Of a DNA stretch of 64,000 nt, positions 3,948 to 36,700 are shown one piece after another (within the stretch, counting starts at the first letter, position 1; every line of letters starts with the position of its first letter). A program made the position numbers and the translations under genes. The DNA is taken from positions 2,232,001-2,296,000 of the forward strand of contig JAHNUO010000003.1 of assembly GCA_019787685.1 (NCBI GenBank), read 5' to 3'. This DNA comes from Chiua virens. Its lineage: Eukaryota > Basidiomycota > Agaricomycetes > Boletales > Boletaceae. The notes beneath the pieces were generated by a model, which saw only the letters and a program-made list of their open reading frames with translations, was not told where the DNA came from and made no database searches.

Positions 3948-3956
3948 CCCAAACCC
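3948..3956. repeat. Target-site duplication, left copy (CCCAAACCC)
   Basis: The nine bases immediately outside the left TIR are identical to the nine bases immediately outside the right TIR (19915-19923). Confidence 0.85.
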
Positions 3957-4216
3957 CAGGCTCCTACACAGCCGTCAGGGTAAGTGTGAGGTTTAGGGGG
4001 TATTAGTAAGCATATTGGAATTTGAAACACCGCCAACCTTAAGATACCTTGCACTTACCACAATGGCTGCAAGAAAACATTGGTAAACATTGGTGGCCAC
4101 AGCTATGCTAGACTTCATAATCAATTGGACATGGAAAAATAAGAAATTATATACACTGAAATTAGGGTTTGCAATATCACAACATGGAAGAATGGATATG
4201 GGAGGGTTGTTCTAAC
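3957..4216 (+). repeat. Left terminal inverted repeat
   Basis: This 260-bp repeat matches the reverse complement of 19655-19914 without gaps and with about eight base differences by eye. Most differences are CG in the right copy and TG or CA here, so the left copy looks more decayed. It contains paired motifs GGTAAGTGTGAGGT (3979-3992) and ACCTTGCACTTACC (4046-4059), an imperfect inner inverted repeat, and a tandem AAACATTGG. A TATA-like TTATATACAC lies about 80 bp before the helicase start, so the TIR may also act as promoter. Confidence 0.9.
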
Positions 4217-4232
4217 TGCGACTTATACCCGG

Positions 4233-6406
4233 ATGGCCGATGTAGCAGCTCCTAATCAGTCAACTCCAGTACCAATACCCATATCTTTGACAATCCAAGC
4301 TCATACTCAGGAGGTGTTCCATGTCAAGCCATGTCTCTGGCAAATTAAGGTCACAGAAGCCATTCTACAGGGAGGAAAAGACGTACTGTGTATTGCAGGC
4401 ACTGGTATGGGGAAGTCGCTCACATTTTGGATGCCACTGCTGTTTCAGCCGGATGGCATTCAAATTGTGGTTACCCCATTAAACCTGCTAGGCAAACAGA
4501 ACATCGAAGGGCTTGCCAGGGCCTGTATACCAGCGATATCCATTAGTTTGGAGACAGCAACGCCTGCCAATTTTCATGTAAGTATACTTGTGTTAGTCCG
4601 AGATTCTCTTACCTGTAAATTCCTAGGCCATCCGCACTTGTAGATATAGGGCCATAGTCATCAGTCTGGAACAGATGATGAAACCTGAGGGCAAATTTGA
4701 AAAGATTCTGAGGGACGCACACTTTGCATTGCACATCATCAGCATTGTGGTTGATGAAGCACATTGCCTTAACCGATTGGGGAGAGTTCTGCCCAGAGTA
4801 CAGGGAACTCGGGCAGATTTCGCTTCGTGCTTCCATCGGTCCCATTGCTTGTTGCATCTGCAACACTCATAGCGAGCGCAATCAGTGATGTTCAGTGGCT
4901 CCTTCAGATGTGTACCAGCAAAACGATTGTATTGCAATGCTCGAGCGACCAGCCTAACATCAAAATTGGCATTCAAAAGATCAAGTATGCATTGAATTCT
5001 TTTGCTGACCTTGCGTTCTTGGTCCCAGACAGATACAATGATAGCGATCCACCCCTGCCGAAATTTCTCGTGTTCTTTGATGATATCTCGGATTCGATTG
5101 CAGCAGTGAAATACCTACGAGGGCGCTTACCCTGTGGCCTAAAGGAGAAGATTAAATGGTTCAATGCAGACATGTTGGTTACCTTCAAGGAGGCAGAGTT
5201 TGCCAATTTGATGGCAGGGAAAACTTGGGGATTCTGTACGACAGCCTTGTTTGGGATGGTGAGGCTGGAATCTACATCTACATTATGGCCGTTGATAGCA
5301 GTTGCAGGGTATGGATGTGCCAGATATCTCCCTGGTGATTCAATGGAGAGTAACGTGCAATCTGTCAGCACTTTGGCAGTGCTTTGGCCGCGTGGCCCAA
5401 AACAAAGAACTTACAGGAACAGCGCTGTTACTCGCTGAGAAGGAATACTTTGACAATGAAAAAGCTGTGAAAGCTGTGAGAAAGGCAAAAAGGTTAGGGA
5501 CACGTAAATGCAAGGTAAAAGAAGCTGACCTACCTGACCCCTTACGTCCAACGAAGCAAGCAATTGCTAGTTGCCAACTGGCTGAATCATCAGATAACAA
5601 GAATGTTGTTTCCATGACCTTTTCGAGTGTGCTGGCTGACGATTCATTGGATGAGGGATCAGACGACAAGGGTGACACAACCCTTATTGTGAACAGGCAA
5701 AATGAAGGTGGAGGAGATGATGAGCAAAAGACGATGGTAGACAGAGGAAGACCAGAGCCGCCTGGTCACTCTGTCCCTCCTGGGAAATGTCGAAAACAGG
5801 ACCTAGACCCTGGCATAGACCTCCTTATTAATGTGGGATACCGTCCTGGCATGGGCTGTCATAGGACGGTCTTCAACACTTGTTTTGATAATGGTGCAGC
5901 TGATGGGGGTTTTCATAATTTGACTAAGCACTACACCGTACATACTGAGACTTTCTTCAGAAACCAACCACCTCCAGTGCAATACAGACACTGATCAAGG
6001 GTGCAACCAGTGCCATGTCCAAGAACCACCTGTCTGCTGCGACCTCCATAATTGCACAGAGTTCTCACCCTACACCTCCACCATCCCTAAACAATGTCGT
6101 GCAATGCAATGCTCACATCTCACCAAGTATACCAAAGAAAAACACGACTACAATCTAGGAAACGCCCTTCATAACTGGTGGGAAGCTAAAGCAGCAGCAG
6201 TATATGGCCAGGCTGCCCTTAATCACCATGGGCCATCCCTCGTCATGACCAATGCAATACTTGACTCCATCGTCGACTACGCTCACCTCAAGAAAATCAA
6301 CTCACTGCTGGACCTCAAGCGAGAAACCGGGTGGATGAGATGTGAGCAGTTTGGGGTTGAAATTCTTGCTCTTCTTCAAACCCATGCTCCACCATGCCCA
6401 TTGTAG
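4233..6406 (+). pseudogene. RecQ-like DEAH helicase of the transposon, broken
   Basis: RecQ-family helicases unwind DNA with ATP. The ATG at 4233 is 17 bp inside the left TIR. Visible motifs are a Q-motif glutamine near residue 37, Walker A AGTGMGKS at residues 55-62, the DEAH box at 4753-4764, ASAT (near 4860), WGFCTTALFGMGMD and QCFGRVAQ. Introns are 4579-4627 (GTAAGT/CTAG) and 5259-5307 (GTGAGG/GCAG). Two frame changes near 4778-4786 and 4811-4820 break the segment after DEAH, and a third near 5975-5994 precedes the cysteine-rich C-terminal part (GCNQC, VCCDLHNC), which ends at the TAG at 6404-6406. Motif VI in RecQ proteins normally has Q-R-x-G-R-x-x-R; here the first and last arginines are Cys and Gln. 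The aromatic-loop tryptophan also appears lost. Confidence 0.85.
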
Positions 6407-6471
6407 AAAAGAAATAATAGGCGATAAGAAGAAAGGTGGGGCAATAGGTTCGTCCCAAGGGGGGTTATATT

Positions 6472-7107
6472 TGAAGGAATGACGGATTCAGGTTTGTCTA
6501 AGAGTCCTAGAGGCTGCTGAACGATCCGGAATGAAAAGCGGTCAATGTAAAAGTATCCAGGTGGAGGCGAGGACATGAGAGTATTGTTTCGAGTAGATGA
6601 GACACAGAGGAACGATAGGATGAGGTAAAAGAAAAACTATCCAGCTCACTCACACATGGGAGAGTAAACAGGAGATCTCCTGAACGCCCCCAAGACCATA
6701 TTTTTGTGTTAGAAACATGGTTTTATAGTCCTGGGCATAACCCAGGACTGCTAAAGGTAATCTGACCCTAAGTAAGTGTACAGGATCGATGTAGGGTGAG
6801 TATGCTAAGAAGGAGTGTCAAACCTTGTAGATGACAAAGAAAGAAAAGGTGTTAGGATAGTAATGACCTTAATAAGGCCAAATCGAGTAGAACAAGTCAA
6901 ATCGGATGAAGCGGAATATGTACGATGGAACTGGATTGGATCGTGTTGACTCGGATTGGACTCGGATTGGATTCAGATGATCTGTAAATGCTAGGAATGA
7001 AACCGGGCTGACACAAAGTCGATGGTGGATGAGACGGGAGGTGATATGACATGATGAAGAGCAAGGAAAATGTATCCCACAACCGTAGGGAGTATCTAAC
7101 TCCTACA
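6472..7107 (-). repeat. Solo LTR, diverged relative of the LTR family at 7740/9483/13344
   Basis: The segment begins TGAAGG and ends CTCCTACA on the plus strand, like the three LTR copies further right. Its minus-strand start (TGTAGGAGTTAGATACTCCCTA) parallels their TGTAGGGAATAGGTATTCCCTG. A TATAAAA on the minus strand (near 6723) lies where those LTRs have CTATAAATT. I could not find a convincing target duplication, so the ends are less certain than for the other copies. Confidence 0.55.
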
Positions 7108-7403
7108 CTGTTGCCATTCGTTTCCACACCTCTTCGTCCTGGTGGGTCCGCTCTTCAAGCCAACAATGCTCAAGTTGGTCAAGCCCCTTCTCCTTCCTCC
7201 GTTATTAAACAGCACAACAAGTGTGGTACATGTGGCCAGGAGGGCCACAATGGTAAGCGTATCTCTCCTTCTACGTGACACTAAGCTCACACCAAGTTCA
7301 AGCAAGGAACAAGGTTTGTCCAAAGCAACGGGTTGACTCCATGGTTGTGAGCAAGGAAAATGTGAGTGTTACTGTCTACGTCTACCTAGGTGACAGTGAT
7401 TGA
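7108..7403 (+). pseudogene. 3' end of a zinc-knuckle gene between helicase and DUF6589
   Basis: A plus-strand frame reads through SSVIKQHNKCGTCGQEGHN and then meets a clean donor, GTAAGC, at 7253. With an acceptor at 7301-7302 the next exon continues ARNKVCPKQR, completing C-x2-C-x4-H-x6-C, a zinc knuckle. The frame then runs to a TGA at 7401-7403. The 5' part is missing or was displaced by the solo LTR that ends at 7107. It stops 27 bp from the convergent DUF6589 stop codon (7431). It may be a third transposon gene or the final exons of the helicase gene; the sequence here cannot decide. Confidence 0.45.
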
Positions 7404-7430
7404 CCTCGACCACCTGCCACACAGATGCCA

Positions 7431-7739
7431 TTACAGTAGTTCGACTAATACATCCAGGAGTTCTGCCTTCTCTTCCTGTACTCCTTCCTCATTCACATTT
7501 ATTTCGCCGCGCATTGCCTTTTCCATCATTGCTAATCCTTTATCGCTAAGGTCTTCAATGACATGCCGCGTTTTTCTTCCTCTGTGTATAATATGTGGCA
7601 CACTTGATACTAGCTTGTCTTGGAGTTTGCTGAATGTTTTTGTAATATCTGGAGCGGCATGATTTGTGTTGAGATGTGTATGATCAAAGTTCGTTTGAAT
7701 AACTTTCTGTACATTTTGGTACACTTGAACTAATGGCAA
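7431..7739 (-). pseudogene. DUF6589 protein, C-terminal fragment
   Basis: The minus-strand frame begins at the LTR edge with PLVQVYQNVQK and continues through GRKTRHVIEDLSDKG to a TAA at 7431-7433. It is the direct continuation of the fragment that ends at 9482: ILES there joins to PLVQVY here, as in other DUF6589 proteins. The four bases next to the LTR (GCAA on plus, TTGC on minus) correspond to TCGC at 9479-9482, a target duplication with one C-to-T change at a CpG. The fragment now lies on the opposite strand from its neighbour because of an inversion between LTRs. The function of DUF6589 is not known; it is treated here as the candidate transposase. Confidence 0.8.
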
Positions 7740-8352
7740 TGTAGGGAATAGGTATTCCCTGTGCTCACATAGCACATTTCCACACCCCGTCGTCACCTGA
7801 TCCTGATCCTGATCTGTCTGCTTGTGCGAACTCATCCGGATTGCTGTATCCGCACCCGTTTTGCCTCGGACTCTTTTATTTATTTTTGATGCTCCTTATT
7901 CATACTTAGCATTGGCTAGACCACGTCATGCAGCCCTTGCAGGGACGTTCGGGTGCCTCTCGAACTTTATACCGTATGAAAACCTTCTTTTTATTATTAT
8001 CCTTACTTAGGACAAGTCTGAGGGTATTCCCGAGGACTATAAATTCACTGTATTGACAAAAATACAGTAGCTTTTGCCTGTGTGCATCTGTCTCACATCA
8101 TTTTCGGTTGACGTTCATTTTCTCTCGCTCTCCTTGTATTTTCTCAATCCGGATCGGACTGCCACATCTGCTTTTCTATCCGTTTTAATCCGGATTTGCC
8201 CCGGATTCATCTTGGACTACTCAAAAACCATTATTCGTCATTCGGCAACTCAGTGTTGTCCCTGGGTCGAACGGAATTGCATTCCTTCACCCTCTTTCTA
8301 TTTCTTTCAATCCCCCTGAGTATTGCACTACAGCCGGGATTTATTACCTTCA
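7740..8352 (+). repeat. LTR copy 1 (recombined), family TGTAGGG...CCTTCA
   Basis: This 613-bp LTR begins TGTAGGGAATAGG and ends TTATTACCTTCA, and carries an ACTATAAATTC promoter-like box near 8036. It is in inverted orientation to copies at 9483-10094 and 13344-13960. Its two flanks do not match each other. Instead the left flank matches the flank of copy 2 and the right flank (ATGG, 8353-8356) matches the outer flank of copy 3. That is the signature of recombination between inverted LTRs. Confidence 0.85.
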
Positions 8353-9482
8353 ATGGGCGATGAATATCAACAATTCTACTGTCAGCAGGAACATTCATGC
8401 CATCATCGAACTCCTCAGACAGGGCGGGATCTACGAGTCTGCCCAGAAGTCAGGAGATGACAACGATGGCGAAGAAATAACTGACCAGGACTCATTGGAC
8501 ATATCGGAACATGTCGTTCTCATCCATGGCAATCTTGGGACAGGTGAATGACTCGTGGGTGCTCAACTGCGCTGCTCCATTGAGTCAACACCATGGAACC
8601 GGTTCCAGCATGTTATATTCATCCTGGGGCTTTTCCACCTGAAGATGGCATGTGCAGATGCACTGTGGCATTGTTTTATCCTTCCATTTTCAGCACGCGA
8701 GGATGATACTGCTCTGATGAATGATGTGGCAACACTTCGTCCAAGGGAAATGTTCACCTTCACTACAAAACCGGGTTTTCGTCGGATGCACGAGCTTGTC
8801 AGCCATGCGGGCATATGTTGGTGGTTGAATTGTTGGTTGGTATACATCCAAGCCAAGATGCAAGGAATCAGAAGTCTAGATGACTTCGCATCCACCAAAC
8901 CAATGCTGCAAGACTTAAGGTCAATGGCAGATGAGATTGCACAACAGTTTGTCGCTACCCACCAAATACAATCTGTGTGGATGAAGCCGGAAGAGTCGCG
9001 CGATCTTCAATTTGAAAATGCGTTGCTCTTGAACAAATATTTCCTACTTTACGAAGAATTGTCATATGCAATGAATAGCGGTGACATTGGACATGTTGAG
9101 ACTTGCATTGTTGACTGGATTCCAATTTTGAAGGTCATCAGGAAGCACAAATATGCATCACACATGCAGAACTTCTTATTGAACATTCACTTTGTCTATC
9201 CAGCTGGTCTGAAGTAAGCCCATTTGTCTGTGCCAGCCACTCACCCTAAACGGACTCCTGCAGGCGAGTAGTTTGTTACCACCTTCTCATTAATCTGACA
9301 GGTCAACCCATGAAATGGCGTGCTGTGGACTGGTGTGTTGAACTAAACAACTTGTTCACAAAGGTATGTGAACGTTCGCTCACCTTGAACTGGTTCCTGT
9401 TAATTTGATGACAGATGGTGGCAGGCAAAAAATGGAGGTAAAGGTCCAAACAGGATGGTTGAGCGGATAATACTCGAGTCGC
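8353..9482 (+). pseudogene. DUF6589 protein, central fragment (inverted segment)
   Basis: The frame starts AMNINNSTVSRNIHAIIELL, reads to HGNLGTGE and hits an in-frame TGA at 8549-8551 where the family usually has arginine (CGA to TGA). It continues as SIESTPWNRFQHVIF, GLFHLKMACADALW and KPGFRRMHEL. Introns are 9214-9263 (GTAAGC/CAG) and 9364-9414 (GTATGT/CAG). After the first, the exon reads RVVCYHLLINLTGQPMKW and VDWCVELNNLFTK; after the second, NGGKGPNRMVERIILES. The frame across the second intron is not clean, so a small indel is likely there. The family motif HGDLGT is HGNLGT here (8531-8533), a possible active-site loss. This piece was originally on the minus strand, upstream of the fragment at 7431-7739. 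Confidence 0.85.
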
Positions 9483-10094
9483 TGAAGGTAATAAATCCTG
9501 GCTGTAGTGCAATACTCAGGGGGATTGAAAGAAATAGAAAGAGGGTGAAGGAATGCAATTCCGTTCGACCCAGGGACAACACTGAGTTGGTGAACGATGA
9601 ATAATGGTTTTTGAGTAGTCCGAGATGAATCCAGGGCAAATCCGGATTAAAACGGATAGAAAAGCGGATGTGGCAGTCCGATCCGGATTGAGAAAATACA
9701 AGGAGAGCGAGAGAAAACGAACGTCGACTGAAAATGATGTGAGACAGATGCACACGGGCAAAGCTACTGTATTTTTGTCAATACAGTGAATTTATAGTCC
9801 TTGGGAATACCCTCAGACTTGTCCTAAGTAAGGATAATAATAAAAAGAAGGTTTTTGTACGGTATAAAGTTCGAGAGGCACCCGAACGTCCCTGCAAGGG
9901 CTGCATGACGTGGTCTAGCCAATGCTAAGTATGAATAAGGAGCATCAAAAATAAATAAAAGAGTCCGAGGCAAAACGGGCGCGGATACAGCAATCCGGAT
10001 GAGTTCGCACAAGCAGACAGATCAGGACCGGGATCAGGTGACGATGGGGTGTGGAAATGTGCTATGCAAGCACAGGGAATACCTATTCCCTACA
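9483..10094 (-). repeat. LTR copy 2 (3' LTR of retrotransposon A)
   Basis: The 612-bp copy reads TGAAGGTAATAAATCC to ATTCCCTACA on the plus strand. It differs from copy 3 by roughly 15-18 bases by eye, about 97 percent identity. Many differences are C/T or G/A at CpG. Confidence 0.88.
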
Positions 10095-10199
10095 CCTGAT
10101 GGGGACTTTAGATGCTGACTGTCCCCAGTCAGCCCGATGTGTATGGGGATGCGGTCGGTGGTTCAACATGACAGTTGCAGATGGCAGCGGATGGGTCCA

Positions 10200-10380
10200 G
10201 ATACGAAAGGGTGACAGATACAACGACAGAGATGGTGATGGCAATAAGAGTGATGACAGAGACAATGACAGAGATGACAAGAGTGATGATGGCTGCACAG
10301 TGACGATGACCTGAAAATGACAGGAACGACAATGACGACTGGTGATAGCGGTGCAGTGACGATGATCCATGAATGACAGG
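10200..10380. repeat. Imperfect GAC/GAT-rich simple repeat
   Basis: Runs of ATGACAGAGACAATGACAGAG type make up about 180 bp inside retrotransposon A. Long open frames across it on the minus strand are products of the low-complexity composition and are not called as genes. Confidence 0.6.
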
Positions 10381-11479
10381 ATTGGATAGTGATTGCGACG
10401 GTGTGACGCATGGCTTTTCTGCGTGTCTGTTGTCTAGGGTTTCGTGCATGAAGGCATGGTGGATGATGTGTGGCCGTAATCTGCGATGCAAAGTGTGTGT
10501 GATGGTTTTGTGTTCATCACAGTGATAGCATCTCTGGTCTCTGGTATGCGTCGATCGTCCTATGTGAATTCTGCTTGTCCACATGTGTCTGGTGTGATCC
10601 TATGTGATCCGGTCGGCCGAGTTTGCTATCCGCTGCTCACTGCATGATCTGAATACGAAGAAAAGAACTGTATGGTTGAACGTGAAAGAGATGATAAGAA
10701 AGAGAAAAACAAAATGAAACCAATTGGCGAGTGTCCAACTTGGCTTGTCTTCATCGTGCATCTTTCGTGTCTATACCTGTAACGGATGCCCTTTCATGAT
10801 ACCTAAAAACATCTGGAAACAATCCGGATACGACTGGATAAAGTGCGTTGTGCCTATGTGTGTTCAAAGAGCAGAAGTGGTATGTAGTGGATGAGGGCAC
10901 GAACTCTAGATGATTGCAATAACGAAGTAGTGAATTGAGTGGTAGAAGAAATGAATGGACTATACGATCATGTGTTGGTTTTTCTATATGGTATTCTTTC
11001 TTTTCTGTGATGGTTTCTTGTTCGATGAGTAATGATCGATCACTGGACTAAACCCAGGGTGAGATAGAGATCTGCTGGACGAATACTGGGGACGAAACAG
11101 AGATGAAACGGATATCAAAAGAATGATTTCAATGACTGAAATTGTGAAAATGCGAAAAGTTGCGTGTGGAAACCGAGGTGGTCATATAGACCCCTCCCCC
11201 CTGGGTAGGCCATATCTGATGACCTCCCGGTCATCCGGATAATGCTGTGGAGAAAGGGTAAGGGTGTCTCAATGATAGTAAAAAAAGAACGGTCAGATTC
11301 CCGGATCGAAGGGAAAATGCAACTGAACAGTGTCGGCCAGGTCGTCGAATAAACCTGATGTGGGCAAAGACAGCTGAAGCATAAACTGAAATGAAAAGAT
11401 GTGTGCATTAGTGTAAAATTGAGAGAGAGGGAAACGGATTGGGAGAGCAGCGAAGGGCATGCGTAGTTTCGATAACCGG

Positions 11480-11935
11480 CTCAGAACCAATTGAACCGGT
11501 GAGGTATGGGTCCTTGGATATGGCCGTAAACGTAGAGGTGGCGGCTCGGATGAGATGAGTGGTGGCATGGTTGCGGAAGCAAGGGGCAAGGTCGATAGCA
11601 GCGAGGGCAGTTTGTTGAAAAAGAATGAGGGTGATGGGCGTGGCTGCAATGTGCGCACTTCATGGGGTATAGGAACTGCGCAGAAGAGTGCATTTAGCTT
11701 CAATCCATGGCTGGAAACCAATCAAACCGGTGAGGTGCTCATCCTCGGATACAGTCATAAATGCAGAGATGGCGGTTTGTTGAGGAAGGACGAGGGCAAT
11801 GAGAGTGGCTGCAATTTGTGCACTTCATGGGGTATAGGAACTGCGCAGAAGAGTGCGTTTAGCTTCAATACCTGACCAGAAACCAATTGGACCGGTGAGG
11901 TACTACAAATCCTCGGATATGGCCGTAAATGCAGA
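11480..11935. repeat. Degenerate tandem repeat inside the gag 3' region
   Basis: A unit that begins GAACCAATTGAACCGGTGAGG recurs near 11487, 11711 and 11879, each followed by a CTCGGATA-type stretch. The first two units also share CACTTCATGGGGTATAGGA and GAACTGCGCAGAAGAGTGC. Spacing is about 225 and 168 bp, so the units differ by an indel. The repeat overlaps the C-terminal end of Gag and its downstream sequence, and probably changed the length of that protein. Confidence 0.65.
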
Positions 11936-13071
11936 GATGGTGGTTCAGACATGACAGGCGATGGGACAGCTTTAGAGATGAGAGACTGACTGGGCAATGC
12001 AGGTGGTGATGGATCCGACATGATCCGAGCTATCCAGATAGATGTTTTCGGTGACACGGCCAGTGTGCTGCTATCGCGAATGGATGGTGATGATGGCAGA
12101 TCCGGTGGTGATAAAACAGTCATGTCCTCTGGAGGCAAGTGAGGTGGTCGTGCTAAGCCAGGTGGGTGAGAGGGAAGTGAGTGGGATGAGAGTATGCGCC
12201 CGGTTGGCCGTTTTGTCATAGCCAAAAACACCGATCTGCTGAGCTGCAATCTGGTACTATGCGACGGATGGGTGAGTGGTGGTGTGAGGTTTGTCAATGG
12301 TGACTTCATAGTCATCCAAGGTAACAGAGGTGGCAAGGCTGGCGTGGTCGATGGTGAGAGCGATGGGGTGGATGAGTCGGGTTGTGACGTATCTGAAGAG
12401 GGTGAAGGCGATTGGATTGGTCGTGGTGATGGACCTGAGAGTGTCCGGATTGATGTATGCATGAGTACATCCAGTGGCAGAGAGATTGTGGCTGAGGAGG
12501 GTGAGTGTAGTGGGTGAGATGTGTTGGGGCAATCTGGTTCATCTTGCTCCTGTGTTTTGGCATGCAGTACCACAAATTCGACAGCTGTGAGAGGCGGATC
12601 AGCACAGACGGGTTCAATTGAGACGTTACCGGATTGCTCAGGATCGCATTCTACTATCCTTGAATAGACCCGGATGGAATCACTTTGCGGCATGTGATCT
12701 GCTAGATTCGATGAGGTGGATGCTGATGCAAGGATGGGGTCGGTGGTGATGTCGATGGATGGTTCTGGAACGTAAAGTGGGTAGTCATCGTCGTATGATG
12801 AGTACCAGTGCTGGACATCGGCTACAAACATTGACCAATCCAGCTGTGTTGCAAGTACTTGCTGTGATGTCCGCCATAGCTCGGCATCTTCTGGGTAGGC
12901 ATACCAGATGGCTGTATTAATCTTCTGTGCGTCTGTGAGTCTGATGCTTGTAGCTAACTGATCGACATGTTTCAAAAAGGCAGGTAACTGTGACGGAATG
13001 GTCGCATTGAAACGTGGGGCGCTAGAGGCAGTCCGGAAGGGCAGCTGTAGGAGATATCCGGGCGATGGCAT
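11755..13071 (-). CDS. Gag-like protein of retrotransposon A
   Basis: This 438-codon frame encodes the structural Gag of a Ty3/gypsy-type element. The recognisable core is near the N-terminus: PRFNATIPSQLPAFLKHVDQ, then LTDAQKINTAIWYAYPEDAE and a WSMFVADVQHWY segment, the helical capsid-like region seen in Agaricomycete gypsy elements. The C-terminal half is rich in Ser, Pro and Thr, and no CCHC zinc knuckle is visible, which is unusual. The start at 13069-13071 lies about 270 bp after the 5' LTR, with the primer-binding site between. There is no pol downstream. The frame is open, so the element may have been mobilised by a related one. Confidence 0.75.
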   Translation of the reverse strand: MPSPGYLLQLPFRTASSAPRFNATIPSQLPAFLKHVDQLATSIRLTDAQKINTAIWYAYPEDAELWRTSQQVLATQLDWSMFVADVQHWYSSYDDDYPLYVPEPSIDITTDPILASASTSSNLADHMPQSDSIRVYSRIVECDPEQSGNVSIEPVCADPPLTAVEFVVLHAKTQEQDEPDCPNTSHPLHSPSSATISLPLDVLMHTSIRTLSGPSPRPIQSPSPSSDTSQPDSSTPSLSPSTTPALPPLLPWMTMKSPLTNLTPPLTHPSHSTRLQLSRSVFLAMTKRPTGRILSSHSLPSHPPGLARPPHLPPEDMTVLSPPDLPSSPSIRDSSTLAVSPKTSIWIARIMSDPSPPALPSQSLISKAVPSPVMSEPPSLHLRPYPRICSTSPVQLVSGQVLKLNALFCAVPIPHEVHKLQPLSLPSSFLNKPPSLHL

Positions 13072-13343
13072 AGTAACAATTCAGATGGTGGCGCAGGTCG
13101 CCGTGCACCATGACAGGTGTGTCGTCTGACTTGTCTGACGTCACTTAGAGGTCTGTGGTGGCGTAAGGGTAGTGGTGCAGGGTTCAATAGGGGTGATTCG
13201 GATGCTATGCAAGGAGGTGTTAACCGAGGCGAAAATTTTCTAAGAAGTGAAGCGAAGGTATGTCATGAGTGAGGTGAATAATGAGTGGATTGGTTGTCGT
13301 CGTCTGTACCAACTTCTGGAAGTCCCTCGTGGTGGGCTCCAGT

Positions 13344-13960
13344 TGAAGGTAATAAATCCCGGCTGTAGTGCAATACTCAGGGGGATTGAAAGAAATAGAA
13401 AGAGGGTGAAGGAATGTAATTCCGTTCGACCCAGGGACAACACTGAGTTGGTGAACGACGAATAATGGTTTTTGAGTAGTCCGAGATGAGTCCGGGGCAA
13501 ATCCGGATTAAAACGGATAGAAAAGCGGATGTGGCAGTCCGATCCGGATTGAGAAAATACAAGGAGAGCGAGAGAAAATGAACGTCAACCGAAAATGATG
13601 TGAGACAGATGCACACGGGCAAAAGCTACTGTATTTTTGTCAATACAGTGAATTTATGTATAGTCCTCGGGAATACCCTCAGACTTGTCCTAAGTAAGGA
13701 TAATAATAAAAAGAAGGTTTTCATACGGTATAAAGTTCGAGAGGCACCCGAACGTCCCTGCAAGGGCTGCATGACATGGTCTAGCCAATGCTAAGTATGA
13801 ATAAGGAGCATCAAAAATAAATAAAAGAGTCCGAGGCAAAACGGGCACGGATACAGCAATCCGGATGAGTTCGCACAAGCAGACAGATCAGGACCGGGAT
13901 CAGGTGACGATGGGGTGTGGAAATGTGCTATGTGAGCACAGGGAATACCTATTCCCTACA
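13344..13960 (-). repeat. LTR copy 3 (5' LTR of retrotransposon A, recombined)
   Basis: The 617-bp copy runs from TGAAGGTAATAAATCC to ATTCCCTACA. It carries a four-base insertion (TATGTATAGTCC against TATAGTCC in copy 2). Its outer flank CCAT (13961-13964, ATGG on minus) matches the ATGG next to copy 1 and not the flank of copy 2, which shows exchange with copy 1. Confidence 0.85.
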
Positions 13961-14228
13961 CCATGCTGCAAAAATTGGTGTTTTGACAAGTGATATCTGC
14001 TCTATTGGCTTTGGTTGTGTAATCTCAGGTTTGAACTGACAAAAGTATGTGGGCCCATAGGTACAGAGGTCACGTAAAAACATCCACGCATTGAACTGCT
14101 GAAATGGCGGCGGCCTTGTGTTCATCGGCTGCTCGTCAGGTTTATGTACTACACTGATCAGATCCCACCAGGTTCATGATTGTTGACCACTGATCTCTGG
14201 ATTCAATGGTGACTGCTTCCACAGTTCG
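13961..14228 (-). pseudogene. DUF6589 protein, fragment between the two retroelements
   Basis: On the minus strand this reads ELWKQSPLNPEISGQQS, an in-frame TGA (14174-14176), then TWWDLISVVHKPDEQP, FNAWMFLRDLCTYGPTYFCQF and EQISLVKTPIFAAW. It continues the N-terminal fragment across the GTTCG duplication of retroelement B: LDE joins to LWKQ in frame. At its other end AAW joins to AMNINN of the central fragment across one copy of ATGG, again in frame. The order of the pieces is therefore fixed by both protein sequence and target duplications. Confidence 0.8.
14224..14228. repeat. Target-site duplication of retroelement B, left (GTTCG)
   Basis: Identical to the five bases after the right LTR (18548-18552). 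Confidence 0.9.
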
Positions 14229-14782
14229 TGTTAGAGACCGTGCGACTCGGAGGTAGCCAACTCCGGATCTCCGGAGTTGTAACGTCGGACGGGACTTGGC
14301 TTCACCGTATGTGGTGCGCCCTTGTCACAGTCTGTCCCTATATTTCGGACGTGCGGAAAACAGAGGTAGATATATGACTCAACACATAAAGTGGAGTCGA
14401 GCGGAGTAAAGACCGTCAAGGTCTTACGGAGTGTTCGGAGTGAGTCGTACAATAAACTAATATTCAGACTAAGGGTACACAGTCATGGTACTACAGTTTA
14501 TATACTCGGAGTGGAATGGAGATTAGTAATGGAGTTGGTAAGAACTGAGTAAGACGGAAGATCGGGAAACTACATAGCCGGAGGTAAGTCGGGTACTGAG
14601 AAAGCCGGAGCTGTGCTCATAAGCGAGACACAGGTTATGTACTAATATAAAAGAGGAAACATATATACGTAACGGAGGTCCGGGGTCGCGGAGTTGCGTC
14701 CTGAGGGAGATCGACCCGGAGTTATCGTCTAAGAGAAACGGAGTTATATCCGGAGGAACGGAGAACGGAGCGGTATATGACA
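14229..14782 (-). repeat. 3' LTR of retrotransposon B
   Basis: 554 bp, starting TGTTAGAGACCGTGCGACTC and ending CGGTATATGACA on the plus strand. Exactly the same length as the partner LTR. Orientation is set by the minus-strand gag. Confidence 0.92.
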
Positions 14783-14920
14783 GTATCCCCCTTTTAGGCC
14801 TGAACCCTTGAAGGCCTTTAGCGAGGAACAATAGTCAAGCGGAGTCAAAGCGCGAACAAAGCGCGAGTGGAGGTGACGGATGTGCGGAGTTTGAATTCGG
14901 AGTGTGGGTGACGTGCTCTG

Positions 14921-14928
14921 TATATAAG
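14921..14928 (+). promoter_or_regulatory. TATA box for the plus-strand gene in retrotransposon B
   Basis: TATATAAG lies 44-51 bp upstream of the ATG at 14972, a normal position for a fungal core promoter, with a pyrimidine-rich stretch (TTTCATTCCTTAACC) between. Confidence 0.6.
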
Positions 14929-14971
14929 TCCGGCGGATGGCTGTTTCATTCCTTAACCATTAATTCCTACC

Positions 14972-15918
14972 ATGTCCGATATCAGCAGCATCAAGGAGTG
15001 GGACGACGCGCGTCTCAAGGAGTGCGACGATGACAGCGACGAGCTGTTCGACGCGAAGGCGACGGAGCGGCGACGACGGATGAAGGTTCGGAGAGAAGCG
15101 GAGGAACAGAGGAAGGCGGAGGAAGCTGAGGAGGTGCGCAAGGCTGAAGAGGCGAGGCGCGAGGCAGAGGAGGCAGAGAAAGCGAGGAGGGCTGCGGAGG
15201 AGCGGAGGAAAGCGGAGGAGCGCGAGGCGCGAGAGGTCGAGGAGGCCAAGAAAAGGGTGAGTGGTTCACAACGTCTGGCTTCCGGAGCTGACGGAGTTAC
15301 TAGGCCGAGGAGGTCCGTGCGGAGCAGAGTGCTCCCAAGGAGAAGGGCAAGGAGAAGGAGAAGGCGCGAGGGTCGGAGTGGGAGGCATGCACTAGGTGCG
15401 AGGACCGAGGCCTGGAGTGCGTACTGGGCGCGGGGAGGAAGTCGACGGCTTGCGAGCCTTGTCGAGACGCCAAGGTGAAGTGCGAGAGGCCCGGAGAGGA
15501 GGTGACGGAGAAGAGGGTGCGCCGGAGGAAACGGGTGGAGGAATCGGAGGAGGTGCCGAAGTCGAAGAAGAAGGCGAGGACCGAGTCGTCGTCCGCTGGT
15601 CCGAGCGGGGCTCAGGGCTCGTCTCTTCCGGAGACGTTCGTGCAGGCGGCGGAGTCGTGGGCGGGAGTTGCGAAGCAGATGACGGAGGCCGTAAGGGATC
15701 TCCAAGCGGCGATGAGGTCGCAAAACAGGCGTCTGGATTACCAGAACGCTCTGTTATCGAGGCTCGTGGAGCTGAAGGTGGAGGAGGTGTACGGAGCGAA
15801 GTCGGAGGAGTCGGATGATGAGGATGTCGATGCGGAGGTGGGCGAAAAGGAGCTCGCGGAGATGGGCACGGAGGTGGAGATGGGTGACTCGGCGGATGCG
15901 GAGGGAGAAGTAGAGTAG
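14972..15918 (+). CDS. Zn2Cys6-like, coiled-coil protein carried antisense in retrotransposon B
   Basis: Two exons, 14972-15256 and 15304-15918, join in frame across a GTGAGT...TACTAG intron and give about 299 residues. The N-terminal third is an acidic-basic heptad-rich helix (RREAEEQRKAEEAEEVRKAE). Around residues 123-160 lies C-x2-C-x6-C-x10-C-x2-C-x6-C (CTRCEDRGLEC and CEPCRDAKVKC), which fits the spacing of fungal Zn2Cys6 binuclear clusters, followed by a basic RVRRRKR patch. The C-terminus is acidic. It is transcribed against the gag gene and has its own TATA box. It is similar in layout to proteins that I recall as common and unnamed in Agaricomycete genomes. DNA binding is inferred; its value to the element is unknown. 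Confidence 0.7.
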
Positions 15919-16706
15919 AATAGAATGTACTTATGAAGTTGCAAAAAGCAACAAGATACGATTCTCGGAGGAAAACGGAGTGAGCGGAGATGGAAGTGTG
16001 GGGAACGGGAGGTCCATATCCCCCTCTTAGGCTAGACGTCCCAGCGTCTAGCAGCGGAGGTGGACGGAGGGAGTTCGGGGTACGAAGGAGGAGGGATGTG
16101 TGAGTGCCTTTCAAAGTAATCCAGGAAAGAACGGTATACGTCGCTGAGGTTCCATGGGTTTTCGATGTCGAGCAGGAGGAGGGATGACCGGAGTAACCTA
16201 GAGGATCAGAGTAGTAGCCGGAGTTGCCAGAGGGAACACCCAAAGGCGCAGAGTCGAGCTCATATGTGTTGGCGTCCATGTTCAGGTGAACAGAAAAGTT
16301 ACTGTCCATAACTCGTCACTCAACGGAGTGTTAGCGAGCGGATCAGTGGTATCCAAGAATCAAGAGAACAGGGGGACCCAACGGAGGTGCACGGAGTGCG
16401 GTCGGAGTGATCATAGGGTAAGGTCGGAGGAGTTATGAGGAGGTCGGGGATGAGAGTCGGGGTAAACGGAGTTGAGGCTCGGGGTAAACGGAGTTCTGGG
16501 GAGTGGAGGGGTAGGGAGTATCGAGGTGAAGAATCATGTCCTCGAACTCTCTCGGGGTGAAAAGAAGAAGGGAGGTGACGACATAAACTGAAGTTCATGA
16601 GGTCCAGAGTGTCGAAAAGACTGGATGCGTTGGTTCTGAATATACTCCTTATTGTGCAGTAGAAGGTAACGCTCCTTCAGAATACACGGAGTCGGGGGTC
16701 GGAGGC

Positions 16707-17951
16707 TTAGTCGGTGTCCTCGGAGGAGGATACCGGAGTTGCTCGCGTAGCACGGGGCTTCGCAGAGCGAGAAGTGGACTTGGGGCAGTCCTTAGCCTTA
16801 TGTCCTGGGAGGCCACAGAACATACATAAGAAGAGGTCGAAACATCTCTGACGTTCGACGGAGGTGAGTTTACCATCTTCACCGAGTGGTGATTCAGGTT
16901 CTTGGGGTGCGGAGGTAGACTCGACGGAGTCGTCGGAGTCATATTCTTGGTCAGATTCGGAGATAGGAGGTGATGCGGATGCGGAGTTTCTGGAGGATTG
17001 CGCGGAGGCGCGATTAATCTCGGAGTTGCGCTCCCAATGGCGAGCATCGATAGCTTGCGCCATGTAACGCATTTCAGAGAGCCTTGGGGGTTTGCCTACG
17101 CGAGAGATTTCGTCTTTGATGCGGTTTGGCAGACCATTGTAGAAATGGGTACGGAGAGCACCTTCTCCATAACCACGGACTTGAGCAGCTAAGCGGTTAA
17201 ACTCAACTACATATTTGTTGATCCTTTGTCCATCACTCATGGACAGATCTCGGAGTTCGTACTCCGCGTCTCCGACCGGATCGTGCGGACCAAAGTTCGT
17301 CTGGAGTTCCAGAACGAAGTCGGTGTAGTGATCTTTCCAGAGGGGACGGGAGACGGAGGGGTCAGATTCGAGGAGGTCGGGTTCAAACCATTCAAGGGCA
17401 ATTCCTTTCAGATAAGACAGTGCAAATGTGACTTTGGCACGGTCTGAGCGGAAAGCCTTGGGACGGTCCTGGAAGTTCAACTCGCATTGAACGAGAAAGA
17501 CTCGGAGTTTGCGGGGGCTTGTCCCATCAAACTGATCAGGTTCTCTGACTTTAGTGCGAGGGGAGGAGCTAGAGGAGGGGTGACGAGAGGCGCGAGTGAG
17601 ACTTTGTATTGCATTTGTCAATCGCCCATAGGTATCATCAGAGGCAAGTTCGGTTTCGGGGTCAGAGAAGTCATCTCCAGAGTTGGGTTCATCAGAGGGA
17701 TGTCCCCTGGAGGAGCCCGGAATACTCGGAGATTGATTACGGGAAGACGGAGTTCGCGCACCCAGGAATACGGGTGCTCGAGAGGCGGAGGATGCAATAA
17801 GTCGAGTGGAGAAACCTCGGAAATCTTCGATGACTTCGGGAGTTCGTCGATGACTGAGGAGGTTCCTGAGAGATTGGATGCGGGTAGTGTCAGATAGGTT
17901 CAAGGTAGAGATACCAGTAGTACTGGTCTGAGGGCGGGTGTGAGAGGACAT
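16707..17951 (-). CDS. Gag protein of retrotransposon B
   Basis: The ATG at 17949-17951 lies about 45 bp inside the 5' LTR edge, and the frame gives 414 residues. Near the middle is a retrotransposon Gag capsid domain (REPDQFDGTSPRKLRVFLVQ, then SYLKGIALEWFEPDLL and INKYVVEFNRLAAQVRGYGE). Near the C-terminus is a canonical CCHC zinc knuckle, CMFCGLPGHKAKDC. Gag packages the element RNA and forms virus-like particles. The frame is complete and undamaged, which fits the young LTRs. The neighbouring 1.9 kb toward the 3' LTR holds no pol, so the element depends on proteins from another copy. Confidence 0.88.
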   Translation of the reverse strand: MSSHTRPQTSTTGISTLNLSDTTRIQSLRNLLSHRRTPEVIEDFRGFSTRLIASSASRAPVFLGARTPSSRNQSPSIPGSSRGHPSDEPNSGDDFSDPETELASDDTYGRLTNAIQSLTRASRHPSSSSSPRTKVREPDQFDGTSPRKLRVFLVQCELNFQDRPKAFRSDRAKVTFALSYLKGIALEWFEPDLLESDPSVSRPLWKDHYTDFVLELQTNFGPHDPVGDAEYELRDLSMSDGQRINKYVVEFNRLAAQVRGYGEGALRTHFYNGLPNRIKDEISRVGKPPRLSEMRYMAQAIDARHWERNSEINRASAQSSRNSASASPPISESDQEYDSDDSVESTSAPQEPESPLGEDGKLTSVERQRCFDLFLCMFCGLPGHKAKDCPKSTSRSAKPRATRATPVSSSEDTD

Positions 17952-17993
17952 AGGTCGTGAGGTGACTGATGACAAGAAGTAGTCTGAATATAC

Positions 17994-18547
17994 TGTTAGA
18001 GACCGTGCGACTCGGAGGTAGCCAACTCCGGATCCTCGGAGTTGTAGCGTCGGACGGGACTTGGCTTCACCGTATGTGGTGCGCCCTTGTCACAGTCTGT
18101 CCCTATATTTCGGACGTGCGGAGAACGGAGGTAGATATATGACTCAACACATAAAGTGGAGTCGAGCGGAGTAAAGACCGTCAAGGTCTTACGGAGTGTT
18201 CGGAGTGAGTCGTACAATAAACTAATATTCAGACTAAGGGTACACAGTCATGGTACTACAGTTTATATACTCGGAGTGGAATGGAGATTAGTAACGGAGT
18301 TGGTAAGAACTGAGTAAGACGGAAGATCGGGAAACTACATAGCCGGAGGTAAGTCGGGTACTGAGAAAGCCGGAGCTGTGCTCATAAGCGAGACACAGGT
18401 TATGTACTAATATAAAAGAGGAAACATATATACGTAACGGAGGTCCGGGGTCGCGGAGTTGCGTCCTGAGGGAGATCGACCCGGAGTTATCGTCTAAGAG
18501 AAACGGAGTTATATTCGGAGGAACGGAGAACGGAGCGGTATATGACA
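17994..18547 (-). repeat. 5' LTR of retrotransposon B
   Basis: 554 bp, near identical to 14229-14782. The differences by eye include ATCCTCGG against ATCTCCGG, GTAGCG against GTAACG, and GAGAACGGAGG against GAAAACAGAGG. Confidence 0.92.
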
Positions 18548-18552
18548 GTTCG
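18548..18552. repeat. Target-site duplication of retroelement B, right (GTTCG)
   Basis: Perfect match to 14224-14228, confirming a simple insertion. Confidence 0.9.
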
Positions 18553-19580
18553 TCCAAACACCGCAGGTCCTCTGGTATGACTCCATGAGCCAGTGGAAAC
18601 AGCAGCCCAGAGGTAAGGTGCTTGAGCAAGTCATTTGATTTCTCAACTGTCAGCACTTGACTTTTTAGGTCAACATCAAAGTTGTCATATGCATACGATG
18701 CGATGAGCGAATGTCCAAGGCTTTGCAATGTGCAATCCGACTCCAAAGATAGTGATTGCACAGCCAGATTTATTGCATCTGTAGAGATCGAGATACCAAG
18801 GTGCACGAGTGTGTTGATGACATTGTACAGCGCATGTACTGACTGTAAAAAGAACCCGATAACACTTTGCAACGCATTTGCCTTTTGATTGATTCCCTGC
18901 ATCAATATACTGCATATACCGGTTCTTTTCTGCTATGTTTTAGACACTTGAGTATACATATGAATTGTCACTAACCATCGCTCTTATCGCAGACCGTCAC
19001 TTTGTACGTCTTTCCTTGAGCGACAAAGACTGACTGCTACGATCACCCTGCTCACAGTCCGTGAGGTGATCAATGATCCCCTCAAGATCAGCTTCATCAA
19101 CCGCGTTCCAAAATTCATCGGCACTGCCTAACAATAGGACTGCATCATCCGAAGGTATGTCTGTGTTTCTGGACTCTCCTAGTCCCTGTTCTTGATGTTT
19201 CTCCTGAAGCAACGAGTCAAGCATCTTCCACAACCTCAGCACACTAGCCTCCATGGTTTGTGCCATCTGCGCAATGTGAAACTCTTCCATCTGCTGAATT
19301 GTTGCACTAGCAGCCCCAAATGCAAACCACCTTCTCTGGATGCAAGACCTTGAATTTCTTGAACATACATTGCTTCAACAACTTCAAAGCACTGCTGTCT
19401 TATCTTATCACGAGTTGCAGGATGTCGAACAAGTGCTTTGAAGATTGCACCAGCATTTGCAATGAGATCATTGACCATGAAGCTCTCATACTCCCGGTTG
19501 GTCAGTAGCATCATGACGAAACTCACAGCGCTGATTTGACAGTCTTCCAGGGCACTGATGACAGGAAGCAGAGAGGACAT
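18548..19580 (-). pseudogene. DUF6589 protein, N-terminal fragment
   Basis: The ATG at 19578-19580 is 74 bp inside the right TIR. The first exon reads MSSLLPVISALEDCQISAVS onward to LASREGGLHLG, where a one-base loss in a T run near 19320 shifts the frame; the next frame goes on as SATIQQMEEFHIAQMAQTME and LWKMLDSLLQEK. An intron lies near 18903-18971 (donor GTTAGT). The following exon has NQKANALQSVIGFFLQS, SLGHSLIASYAYDNFDVDLK and LKHLTSGLLFPLAHGV, hallmarks of DUF6589 as I know the family. It ends CLDE at the retroelement B insertion. YDNFD may hold one catalytic aspartate of an RNase H-like fold; this is a guess. The protein is not functional in this copy. Confidence 0.85.
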
Positions 19581-19654
19581 GGTGGACTGAAATTACACTC
19601 TATGTTGTCCTACCGTGTGGTGACTGCATGGTGCACAACATGGCAGCCACTGAT

Positions 19655-19914
19655 GTTAGAACAACCCTCCCATATCCATTCTTCCATGTTGTGATATTGC
19701 AAACCCTAATTTCAGTGTATATAATTTCTTATTTTTCCATGTCCGATTGATTACGAAGTCTAGCACAGCTGTGGCCACCAATGTTTACCAATGTTTTCTT
19801 GCAGCTGTCGTGGTAAGTGCGAGGTATCTTAAGGTTGGCGGTGTTTCAAATTCCAATATGCTTACTAATACCCCCTAAACCTCGCACTTACCCTGACGGC
19901 TGTGTAGGAGCCTG
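19655..19914 (-). repeat. Right terminal inverted repeat
   Basis: This 260-bp partner of the left TIR keeps a perfect 14-bp inner inverted repeat, GGTAAGTGCGAGGT (19812-19825) and ACCTCGCACTTACC (19879-19892), separated by 53 bp. In the left TIR both arms have lost their CG. A TATA-like GTATATAAT at about 19718-19726 reads toward the DUF6589 start. Confidence 0.9.
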
Positions 19915-19923
19915 CCCAAACCC
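19915..19923. repeat. Target-site duplication, right copy (CCCAAACCC)
   Basis: Identical to 3948-3956. It ends 12 bp before the ATG of the next gene. Confidence 0.85.
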
Positions 19924-33764: not shown

Positions 33765-36700
33765 TCACCGCAGCGCCAACGACGACATCAAATTCAACGT
33801 CCATTCGTCCAACTCGCCCCGGGTCTGCATCGCCTCGATGCGCTCCACCATGACCGTCATCGTCATCGCCGACGCGGCGTTATCGAGCCGGGTCAACAGT
33901 GAGTCCATCACCATCATGATCTCCAACTCGCCCATCTTGTCGTGCATCGGGGGTAGCAGCTGATCGGGGTCGCCGTACATGTACAACGGCTCGAACACCT
34001 CGTCCTCGGAGAGCTCAGATGGGACGCTCTCCTTGCGTTTTGGGAACGGGCGAAAGACACGCCCACTCGCGAGGGCTTCGAACCGGAGACACAGCACGGC
34101 CAGTTCTCTGACTTGATCGATACTCCACTGGACCTCGGGCGGCGACGACACCACCGACGCACTCGCCGAGCCGCCCGTGAGATCCATGTCTTGGCGTCCC
34201 GCAACGGACCCCGGGTAGATGAGCGATACCATCTCGGGGATTTCGAGACCCTTGAGTTTGATCTCTCCCACGGGGATCACCTTGATGTTCATCCGCCGGA
34301 CTGCCTCGATCGCTTGGGGGGGTTGGAACTCAGAGTATTCGGTGTCGGGACCGGTTTCAGTGACACGGGCATTGATCTCCCGGACGACGTCTGCGCTACA
34401 CACAATTTGTCCGCCAGCGGTGTTGCCACAGATGCGTGCGGCACGAATTACCATGGGCCCAAAGTAGTCCATCCGGTTTGTGATCGGGTCGGGCTCACAG
34501 ACGGGCGTACCACAGTGCATACCCATCCGCACCGACAGCCCGCGTGCGATCAGATTGCCTTGCGAGTCCCATACTTCCTTTCCCTCCTCACACGCGAGAA
34601 TCTCGTGCGGCCATGGCTCATGCATCAGCTGAACCTGGACCGTCAACGCCCACCACAACGCGGCCAAGGTGGTCGGGAACGAACACATGAACGCGTCCCC
34701 TTCCGTCTTGACAACGTATCCACCACATATACGCAGCTGTCGACGCAAGAGATTATTGTGCACTTTCATCGCCGTTGGCATGCCTGCATTTGCCTCCCAC
34801 AATTGTGTCGAATTCCGAATGTCGGTGAAGACGAGACACAGGTGGCCAATCGGAGGCGAGACTTCGTAATCCAGCCGAGCGATCGTGCGGTCCTGGATGT
34901 CCGTCTTCTTCCCCCCTCGCCTTTTCAACGCGCTATAAGGCTCCCCATCAATGGACAAATCAGTGGCTGGCTGCTTCTTTGGGCGGAATAGGTCTGCAAT
35001 ACAGATCACCATGATCATCGTACTCCCGTCCGACCCATAGCTGATGGCAAAGTCGCGCAACTTTTGCGCTGCAATCATTGGGTCAGAAATCTCCGACCGC
35101 GCAATGTCCACAGCCGTTTGGTAAGAGATGTAATCCCACAACCCTCGATTCCCGATGATGACGAACTCGTCTTGCTCTGTCAACTGCCGTTTCGCCACGT
35201 CCGGTCGCGCATTCACCACGGGGAAATGATAAAAGTAGCCAAACGAACGTGAGGTGTCGATTTCCTCGTGAATGAGACCCTTGGGCGAGATCCACCCCTC
35301 CGCAGTCCGTATACGCTCCGTCTCACGCCGGTCGAAAGGGTCGTGTTTTCGCGAGAACAATTCTGCGGACCCTTGCATCGACACTACCGCGAGCGCGTCA
35401 CCCGCGTTCGCCATGTACATGGTCTTTCCGGCAAAGTAAAGCACGATGCCAGATGCCCCTGCACGATACGAACTCTCGGCTGAGGCCGTGCCTGCCGTCG
35501 ACGCGCTCACCTGCGACATCTTTCGATTCGACGGATTGGCGTAAAGCGAGTCGTGCAACGATTTGTTGAGCCTCAGGAACGTCCGACGCAATGCATCGAG
35601 CACCGTCTCTGATTTGGAGGGATCAATTACATTCAAATGCCCGATGAACTGCGATATGAAATTGTCGTGGAGATACTTGGACAGGTGATTGTTGTTTGGC
35701 AGTGCGTCGGACCGCCCAAACATGGCAAAGACGGCCTCGTCCTTGTGCCCTCGAAACTCGGGCTGAACAAGATCAAACATGGTGAGGTAGCCGGTAATCC
35801 CGAGGTTGTCCGCAATCCCGTATGACATCTTGTTCACTTCCGAAAGTGACGTTCGGACGCGCCGGTCCTCGCTTTCCTCGGGGATGTTGGGAAGGAAGGT
35901 GGTCGTGACGTCCATCAGACCGAGGACGCGCAGCGAGGTCAACTCGGAAAAGTCGGCGAGTACGATACGACCTTTATCACCTTGACCCGAATGACGTCTC
36001 GTGCCGCGGTCGTCAGACTTGATCTCAAGCCGTTTGTTTCCTGACAGGTTAAGGTACTTGAGATTTGGATTAAAATTCCTGCGGCACAACAGGGTCAGAT
36101 GGTTGGCTCGGCGGGGCACGCGCAAATTTTTTTACCAATTCCAATCAAATTCCCAATTGTTGATGTTGTACCTCAACACGTTGCTACCCGCATCGATCAC
36201 CGTTAAACTCTGCACTTTGCCCAACTCCTGTGGCAGTGTCTGCAGCTTGTTACCATTGAGAAATAAGACACTCAGTCTTGTCAACCTCGGCAAGTCCTCG
36301 GTTGGAATGCTAGTCAGTTGATTTCCACTCAAGTAAAGCTCCTCGAGTCGCGTAAGATTGCGGAGAAAAGAGGAAGGGAGTTCCTGTATTTCGTTAAATG
36401 AAAGGTTGAGGACGCGCAGTTCTTTCAAGATCATAAATGGTGGCAGGCAATCGTCGGTAAGTCGGTTCTCGCCTACATAAAGTTTCTCGAGCGAGTACGC
36501 GAGCGGGGGGGCTGGTCGGTTCGAGGATGGGGTGTGCACCGTCGCACTCGACGCCTTTCTTGATAGCTGCAAACGTGACCGAGGACCGGGAGGGGTGGGC
36601 GGCAGCTCGAGGGTTATGCCGGTAGCAGGAGGAGTGACGAGCGATGAGTCTGGTGGATCGTGCCATGTATCGATCAGGTTGGACGTTAGATTAATCAGGG

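Follow-up and report, generated by a model that had tools for sequence, protein, structure and literature searches.

A decayed DNA transposon of Chiua virens, probably of the AcademH kind, with a RecQ-like helicase and DUF6589 as candidate transposase

Ends, genes and further copies

We analyzed a stretch of 64,000 nucleotides from the genome of the basidiomycete Chiua virens (contig JAHNUO010000003.1 of assembly GCA_019787685.1, positions 2,232,001 to 2,296,000, forward strand; hereafter the window). Positions 3957-19914 of the window are a copy of a DNA transposon, 15,958 bp in length, bounded by terminal inverted repeats (TIRs) and flanked by a 9-bp target duplication. It carries the remains of two genes, one for a RecQ-like helicase and one for a DUF6589 protein. 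With a probability of about 0.83, this element is a TIR DNA transposon of the AcademH kind that has decayed, and DUF6589 would be its DDE transposase.

A preliminary description of the window had reported inverted repeats of exactly 260 bp with an identical 9-bp duplication on their flanks. Each TIR is indeed 260 nucleotides long; the two agree at 252 of 260 positions (97%), so they are not identical copies. The perfect 9-mer CCCAAACCC was found on both flanks, as described. The same description had two genes reading inwards from 17 and 74 bp inside the repeats, and their starts and orientation were confirmed: the helicase ATG at 4233 lies 17 nucleotides inside the inner TIR end, and the DUF6589 ATG at 19580 (minus strand) 74-75 nucleotides inside. 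Neither gene is intact, however. The window helicase has a DEAD/DEAH domain (Pfam, E=1.8e-8), and a related copy elsewhere in the genome (C3:296846) has a helicase exon that matches RecQ-family helicases with known structures (WRN, 8.1e-14; 4tmu 'RecQ', 1.5e-11). The piece of the second gene at 8552-9217 matches PF20231 (DUF6589) at E=2e-46.

Further copies were sought in the same genome (48.3 Mb; contigs are written C1, C3 and so on, the window being part of C3). The TIR search, a check proposed with the preliminary description, gave 25 matches: nine pairs, a further match with its other end located by motif, and six with one end only. The element at C4:564158-570203 was found through its DUF6589 gene. 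Both ends were thus identified for 11 elements, window included (Table 1). Exact 9-bp duplications flank 8 of the 11, the remainder matching at 8/9, 8/9 and 7/9 positions. In the eight elements with exact duplications the 20-nucleotide ends differ at 0-2 positions. CAGGCTCCT is terminal in 11/11 elements, though the TIRs of different families otherwise differ, and three of the 11 had been sought by a pattern that already contains most of CAGGCTCCT. In 10 regions around partial TIR matches we found 2 pairs with exact duplication and 3 more, imperfect, by motif. In a control with 10 mononucleotide shuffles of 5 regions, 9-bp-duplicated pairs never had fewer than 7/20 mismatches. The C24 and C10:60259 elements may not be independent, because they have flank letters in common. 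The ends at C32:235246 and C32:261278 point towards each other across 26 kb, without matching duplication. At C32:259169-260544, a helicase-side stretch is fused directly to DUF6589, an internal deletion relative to the copy at C3:296-302 kb.

Both genes are present in four of the 11 elements: the window copy, the 6275-bp C10 copy, the 10625-bp C50 copy and the 6046-bp C4 copy. The other seven are short (0.55-1.6 kb). Among these, C1:3334675 carries the 5' part of the helicase, C18 the first 41 DUF6589 residues, and C1:1598200 a stretch weakly similar to DUF6589 (28% identical in 172 amino acids). No DUF6589 match was obtained for C7, C8, C24 or C10:60259, and blastn returned only TIR matches for these four. 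The longest open stretch in the seven is 175 amino acids, and the longest ones of C7 and C8 look low-complexity. TIR copies enclosing unrelated genes had been named beforehand as grounds for giving up the idea of a single unit; no unrelated gene was recognised in the seven short derivatives.

The joined flanks of three insertions (C50, C10 and window) were also searched in the same genome, and each gave uninterrupted sites, which are paralogues within one genome rather than orthologous empty sites of a sister strain. For C50, site C9:22617-22825 aligns over 209 bp, base by base, without gap and at 98% identity; a second site, C14:373878, reaches 89% identity and shows small gaps immediately past the junction. 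For C10, C9:1014677-1014889 is 92% identical over 1-212 of 291 and spans the junction by coordinates only. The same holds for the window insertion, where C10:294683-294883 is 94% identical over 92-291.

Since there are three more two-gene copies with TIRs and 9-bp duplications, short derivatives and uninterrupted paralogous sites, a single mobile unit holding both genes, as first proposed, is supported. An inverted repeat made by chance or by duplication around host genes would suit the low copy number, but it is scarcely conceivable in view of 11 two-ended elements, eight exact 9-bp duplications and the uninterrupted sites.

Helicase and DUF6589 as partners

Across the genome, 27 DUF6589 profile matches were grouped by hand into at least 18 loci, and 24 helicase matches into at least 20. 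A helicase lies within 5 kb of 12 of the 18 DUF6589 loci, with a chance expectation of about 0.004 per locus; the two genes are therefore not found mostly apart, which had been the other ground named for giving up the single unit. Eleven of the 12 pairs are convergent, and the twelfth is that of the window, whose matching piece is an inverted one. By best tblastn score, the DUF6589 loci fall into clade 1 (n=8), clade 2 (n=3) and clade 3 (n=6), with one locus too short to place. The three clades are mutually 20-25% identical, and paired loci occur in each. TIRs and duplications were found at 4/8 clade-1 loci. A TIR scan of 14 merged regions gave one pair with duplication (C4, clade 1).

DUF6589 relatives are numerous. 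Of 7,999 candidates scored with one query, 831 were relatives at E<=0.001. Among the matches listed, PF20231 was present in 120/120; the named ones, from mushroom-forming fungi, were called 'hypothetical' or 'uncharacterized', and the nearest were from Lanmaoa and Boletus. Among viral contigs, 145 pattern matches included no relative. We built a clade-1 profile (A1) from 43 of the 120 listed proteins, picked for length, and a clade-3 profile (A2) from 40 of 120 proteins of a second listing. In hhalign, A1 and A2 align over 719 columns (E=1.1e-49, 20% identity), with motifs in register: YDNFD / HDNVN, HGDLGT / GDQLT and VDWCVELN / ID..QEHN for clade 1 and clade 3, respectively. Residues D282, D473 and E726 of the clade-1 relative P0001 align with D281, D453 and E697 of P0121, and are conserved at 98-100%. 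In the C10 copy, the scanned open reading frames (ORFs) hold helicase and DUF6589 domains. No nuclease domain was found in the 7 ORFs of that copy or in the scanned window pieces, small ORFs and exons being covered in part. DUF6589, with putative D-D-E residues, is the best transposase candidate of the element and very probably its transposase.

The helicase might instead drive movement, with DUF6589 as a passenger or accessory, given that at the 12 paired loci it is no less constant than its partner. This is very unlikely. Apart from the helicase, DUF6589 is the only coding gene recognised in the 6.3-kb C10 copy, its D, D, E residues are nearly invariant, and RecQ-type helicases are not known to have strand-transfer activity.

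Inserts, decay and surroundings of the window copy

The pieces of the window copy are given in Table 1, where the limits of the DUF6589 pieces are residues of P0001 in tblastn. Four nested inserts of LTR type (6402-7107, 7740-8352, 9483-13960, 14229-18547) make up about 10.1 kb of its 15,958 bp, and the remainder of ~5.8 kb is near the size of the 6,275-bp C10 copy. The helicase of the C10 copy is itself broken by an insert, a 90% identical relative of the 706-bp insert at another point. Within the long terminal repeat (LTR) retroelement at 9483-13960, an ORF of 441 amino acids has no Pfam match. The retroelement at 14229-18547, nested in the DUF6589 gene, contains a Retrotrans_gag ORF (16707-18089, minus strand); its end at 18547 and its 5-bp duplication GTTCG were read by eye. 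The 5' piece of DUF6589 includes the first Asp of the candidate catalytic triad (D282 in P0001). Because of the nested inserts and the inversion of part of DUF6589, the window copy is dead, as neither protein can be encoded in one piece.

Table 1. Features of the window element and TIR elements found in the same genome
Feature	Position	Strand	Basis
Left target site duplication CCCAAACCC	3948..3956		flanking 9-mer read
Left TIR, first letters CAGGCTCCTACACAGCC	3957..4216	+	252/260 identity with right TIR
RecQ-like helicase, main part, several exons, not intact	4233..6401	+	Pfam DEAD; tblastn with exons of related copy, 4627-6403
706-bp TG...CA insert, solo-LTR-like, splits helicase	6402..7107		blastn/tblastn mapping and LTR limits
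Helicase gene end	7111..7257	+	tblastn, 51% over 57 amino acids
DUF6589 3' part, P0001 residues 753-832	7497..7736	-	tblastn
Solo LTR, inverted relative to LTRs 9483-10094 and 13344-13960	7740..8352	-	LTR limits
DUF6589 middle part, P0001 residues 418-752, inverted relative to rest of gene	8357..9481	+	Pfam PF20231; tblastn
Nested LTR retroelement, LTRs 9483-10094 / 13344-13960, about 97% identical	9483..13960		LTR limits
DUF6589, P0001 residues 327-416	13964..14227	-	tblastn
Nested Ty3/gypsy-type retroelement, LTRs 98.7% identical	14229..18547		LTR comparison and Pfam
DUF6589 5' part, P0001 residues 1-328, ATG 19580	18546..19580	-	tblastn; alignment
Right TIR	19655..19914	-	inverted-repeat pairing with left TIR
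Right target site duplication CCCAAACCC	19915..19923		flanking 9-mer read
Window element	3957..19914		exact 9-bp duplication
Two-gene element, 6275 bp	C10:591564-597838		exact 9-bp duplication
Two-gene element, 10625 bp	C50:19401-30025		exact 9-bp duplication
Two-gene element, 6046 bp	C4:564158-570203		exact 9-bp duplication
Short element	C7:1934151-1935399		exact 9-bp duplication
Short element	C8:1376673-1377879		exact 9-bp duplication
Short element	C18:519958-520735		exact 9-bp duplication
Short element	C1:3334675-3336252		exact 9-bp duplication
Short element	C24:7429-7982		imperfect duplication, 8/9
Short element	C1:1598200-1599455		imperfect duplication, 8/9
Short element	C10:60259-60816		imperfect duplication, 7/9

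An outward reading of DUF6589, with its Pfam-matching middle on the plus strand, was considered and rejected: the pieces on either side are on the minus strand, and opposed LTRs bound the middle. These opposed LTRs suggest that the middle part was inverted by LTR-LTR recombination; the target-duplication checks around the LTRs were not decisive for this route.

Shortly past the element end at 19914, an ATG at 19936 opens a frame with a P-loop-like VTGQPGIGKS, seen by eye, and the 5' region of this gene may be the place where the window element inserted. Further on, adjacent minus-strand frames at 33765-37799 carry LRR, PP2C and adenylate/guanylate cyclase domains and resemble a fungal adenylate cyclase. 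An Rfam scan of the window gave no match.

Relation to AcademH and other helicase-bearing elements

AcademH was reportedly described by Kojima in 2020 and is said to comprise RecQ-helicase transposons with 9-10-bp duplications. TIRs are a feature of AcademH, the nuclease of AcademX is XPG, and Kolobok duplications are TTAA.

The preliminary description had named no superfamily that the 9-bp duplication and the ends matched for certain, and had taken the pairing for one not usually described. That no known superfamily fits is not supported, as far as the available portions of two papers go: Academ transposons contain a RecQ helicase (PMC3627910), and duplications are 9 or 10 bp in AcademH and 3 or 4 bp in AcademX, the two forming one superfamily in which AcademX has a nuclease where AcademH has the helicase (PMC10045372). 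In further sources, again in the passages at hand, AcademH is present, with few copies, in Basidiomycota, Ascomycota and Mucoromycota (PMC10799480), non-autonomous Academ elements are widespread in Marasmius oreades (PMC8290104), and Academ is mentioned in PMC12210899; it is unmentioned in PMC12730594 and PMC9674265. Like AcademH as portrayed there, the window element is helicase-encoding, fungal and of low copy number. It shows a RecQ-type helicase (by its DEAD/DEAH domain and the RecQ-family PDB matches), duplications in the 9-10-bp range, exact at 9 bp in 8/11 elements, and TIRs. AcademX, with a nuclease and 3-4-bp duplications in the parts available, is unlike the present element, with its helicase and 9 bp.

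KolobokH also has a RecQ helicase together with a DDE transposase, and is limited to fungi in the portion available of its description (PMC9587614), so that it resembles the window element in helicase and host. There, however, the helicase lies downstream of the transposase domain, whereas in the present elements the two genes are distinct and lie on opposite strands, 11 of the 12 pairs being convergent. TTAA occurs in none of the eight exact 9-bp duplications. We thus regard assignment to KolobokH as highly improbable. Subtelomeric RecQ-like helicase genes of Agaricus bisporus var. burnettii share with the window helicase the RecQ core and multiple copies (PMC7473861); they are linked, in the passages available from that paper, to neither TIRs nor DUF6589. 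The four-copy block at C21, C36, C40 and C51, treated below, invites comparison with these genes.

Several points weigh against the assignment to AcademH with DUF6589 as transposase. The placement, although most likely, goes by described features: helicase, duplication length, TIRs, host and copy number. Evidence for mobility consists of insertions and uninterrupted paralogues and not of excision, and would fit cut-and-paste or copy-and-paste. TIRs with duplications were seen at 0/8 of the clade-2 and clade-3 loci scanned, whose flanks were readable only in part. Within 5 kb, no helicase accompanies six of the 18 DUF6589 loci, namely C14:328167 and five short matches, of which one lies in a deletion copy; 8/20 helicase loci lack a DUF6589 neighbour at the same distance. 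Also, the 12 pairs cannot all be counted as independent: C21:527623, C36:67413, C40:178069 and C51:58131 (L035, L037, L038, L039) are copies of one duplicated segment, with about 97% identity across more than 6.4 kb. C36, C40 and C51 share the 1.7-kb left flank of C21 at 99% identity, the right flank is part of a dispersed repeat with 52 matches, and no TIR pair was found in the 9.5-kb C21 stretch. As for the protein, the DUF6589 profile had no credible relative among sequences of known structure (PDB; best E 0.23), and other Pfam families match just 1-2 of 43 members (best E 0.0069). The RNase-H/DDE core is putative, with D-D-E conservation as its basis, and we infer the triad from among several residues, since other acidic positions common to both profiles (D630, D657, D722) are equally conserved.

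Two related alternatives were weighed. In one, which is unlikely, DUF6589 is a separate family of DDE transposases and not a subset of Academ, a RecQ helicase was paired with a transposase and a 9-10-bp staggered cut more than once, and the three clades, all with convergent RecQ partners, represent an ancient two-gene transposition system that is widespread in mushroom-forming fungi but catalogued as of unknown function. In the other, which is decidedly unlikely, DUF6589-RecQ elements form a separate superfamily that has no relation to Academ, with helicase and 9-bp duplication acquired by convergence. In its favour, DUF6589 was found in no main text of the literature searched, Repbase and supplements lying outside that search, and PF20231 appeared there just in an optics paper, as a string that has nothing to do with the Pfam family. 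On the other side, RecQ helicase, 9-10-bp duplication and fungal host jointly make up the published Academ/AcademH description, as far as the sources were available. If the Academ link is right, the new transposase family proposed in the preliminary description would reduce to a Pfam name for the transposase of AcademH. Naming it so is the apparent new part; the same assignment may stand elsewhere, since Repbase, supplements and further papers lay outside the search.

We hypothesize that, in an AcademH-kind element, DUF6589 as candidate DDE transposase would bind the TIRs, cut at the CAGGCTCC ends and join these to target strands 9 bp apart, and that gap repair would then produce the 9-bp duplication. 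Less firmly, the RecQ-like helicase might open or process the ends, or help gap repair. The short derivatives of 0.55-1.6 kb were probably mobilised in trans. Should DUF6589 be the transposase of AcademH, a function and candidate catalytic residues could be assigned to a Pfam family now labelled as of unknown function. It would also provide a rule for finding such elements, by CAGGCTCC ends, 9-bp duplications and a convergent RecQ gene, and the role of a RecQ helicase inside a DNA transposon would become testable.

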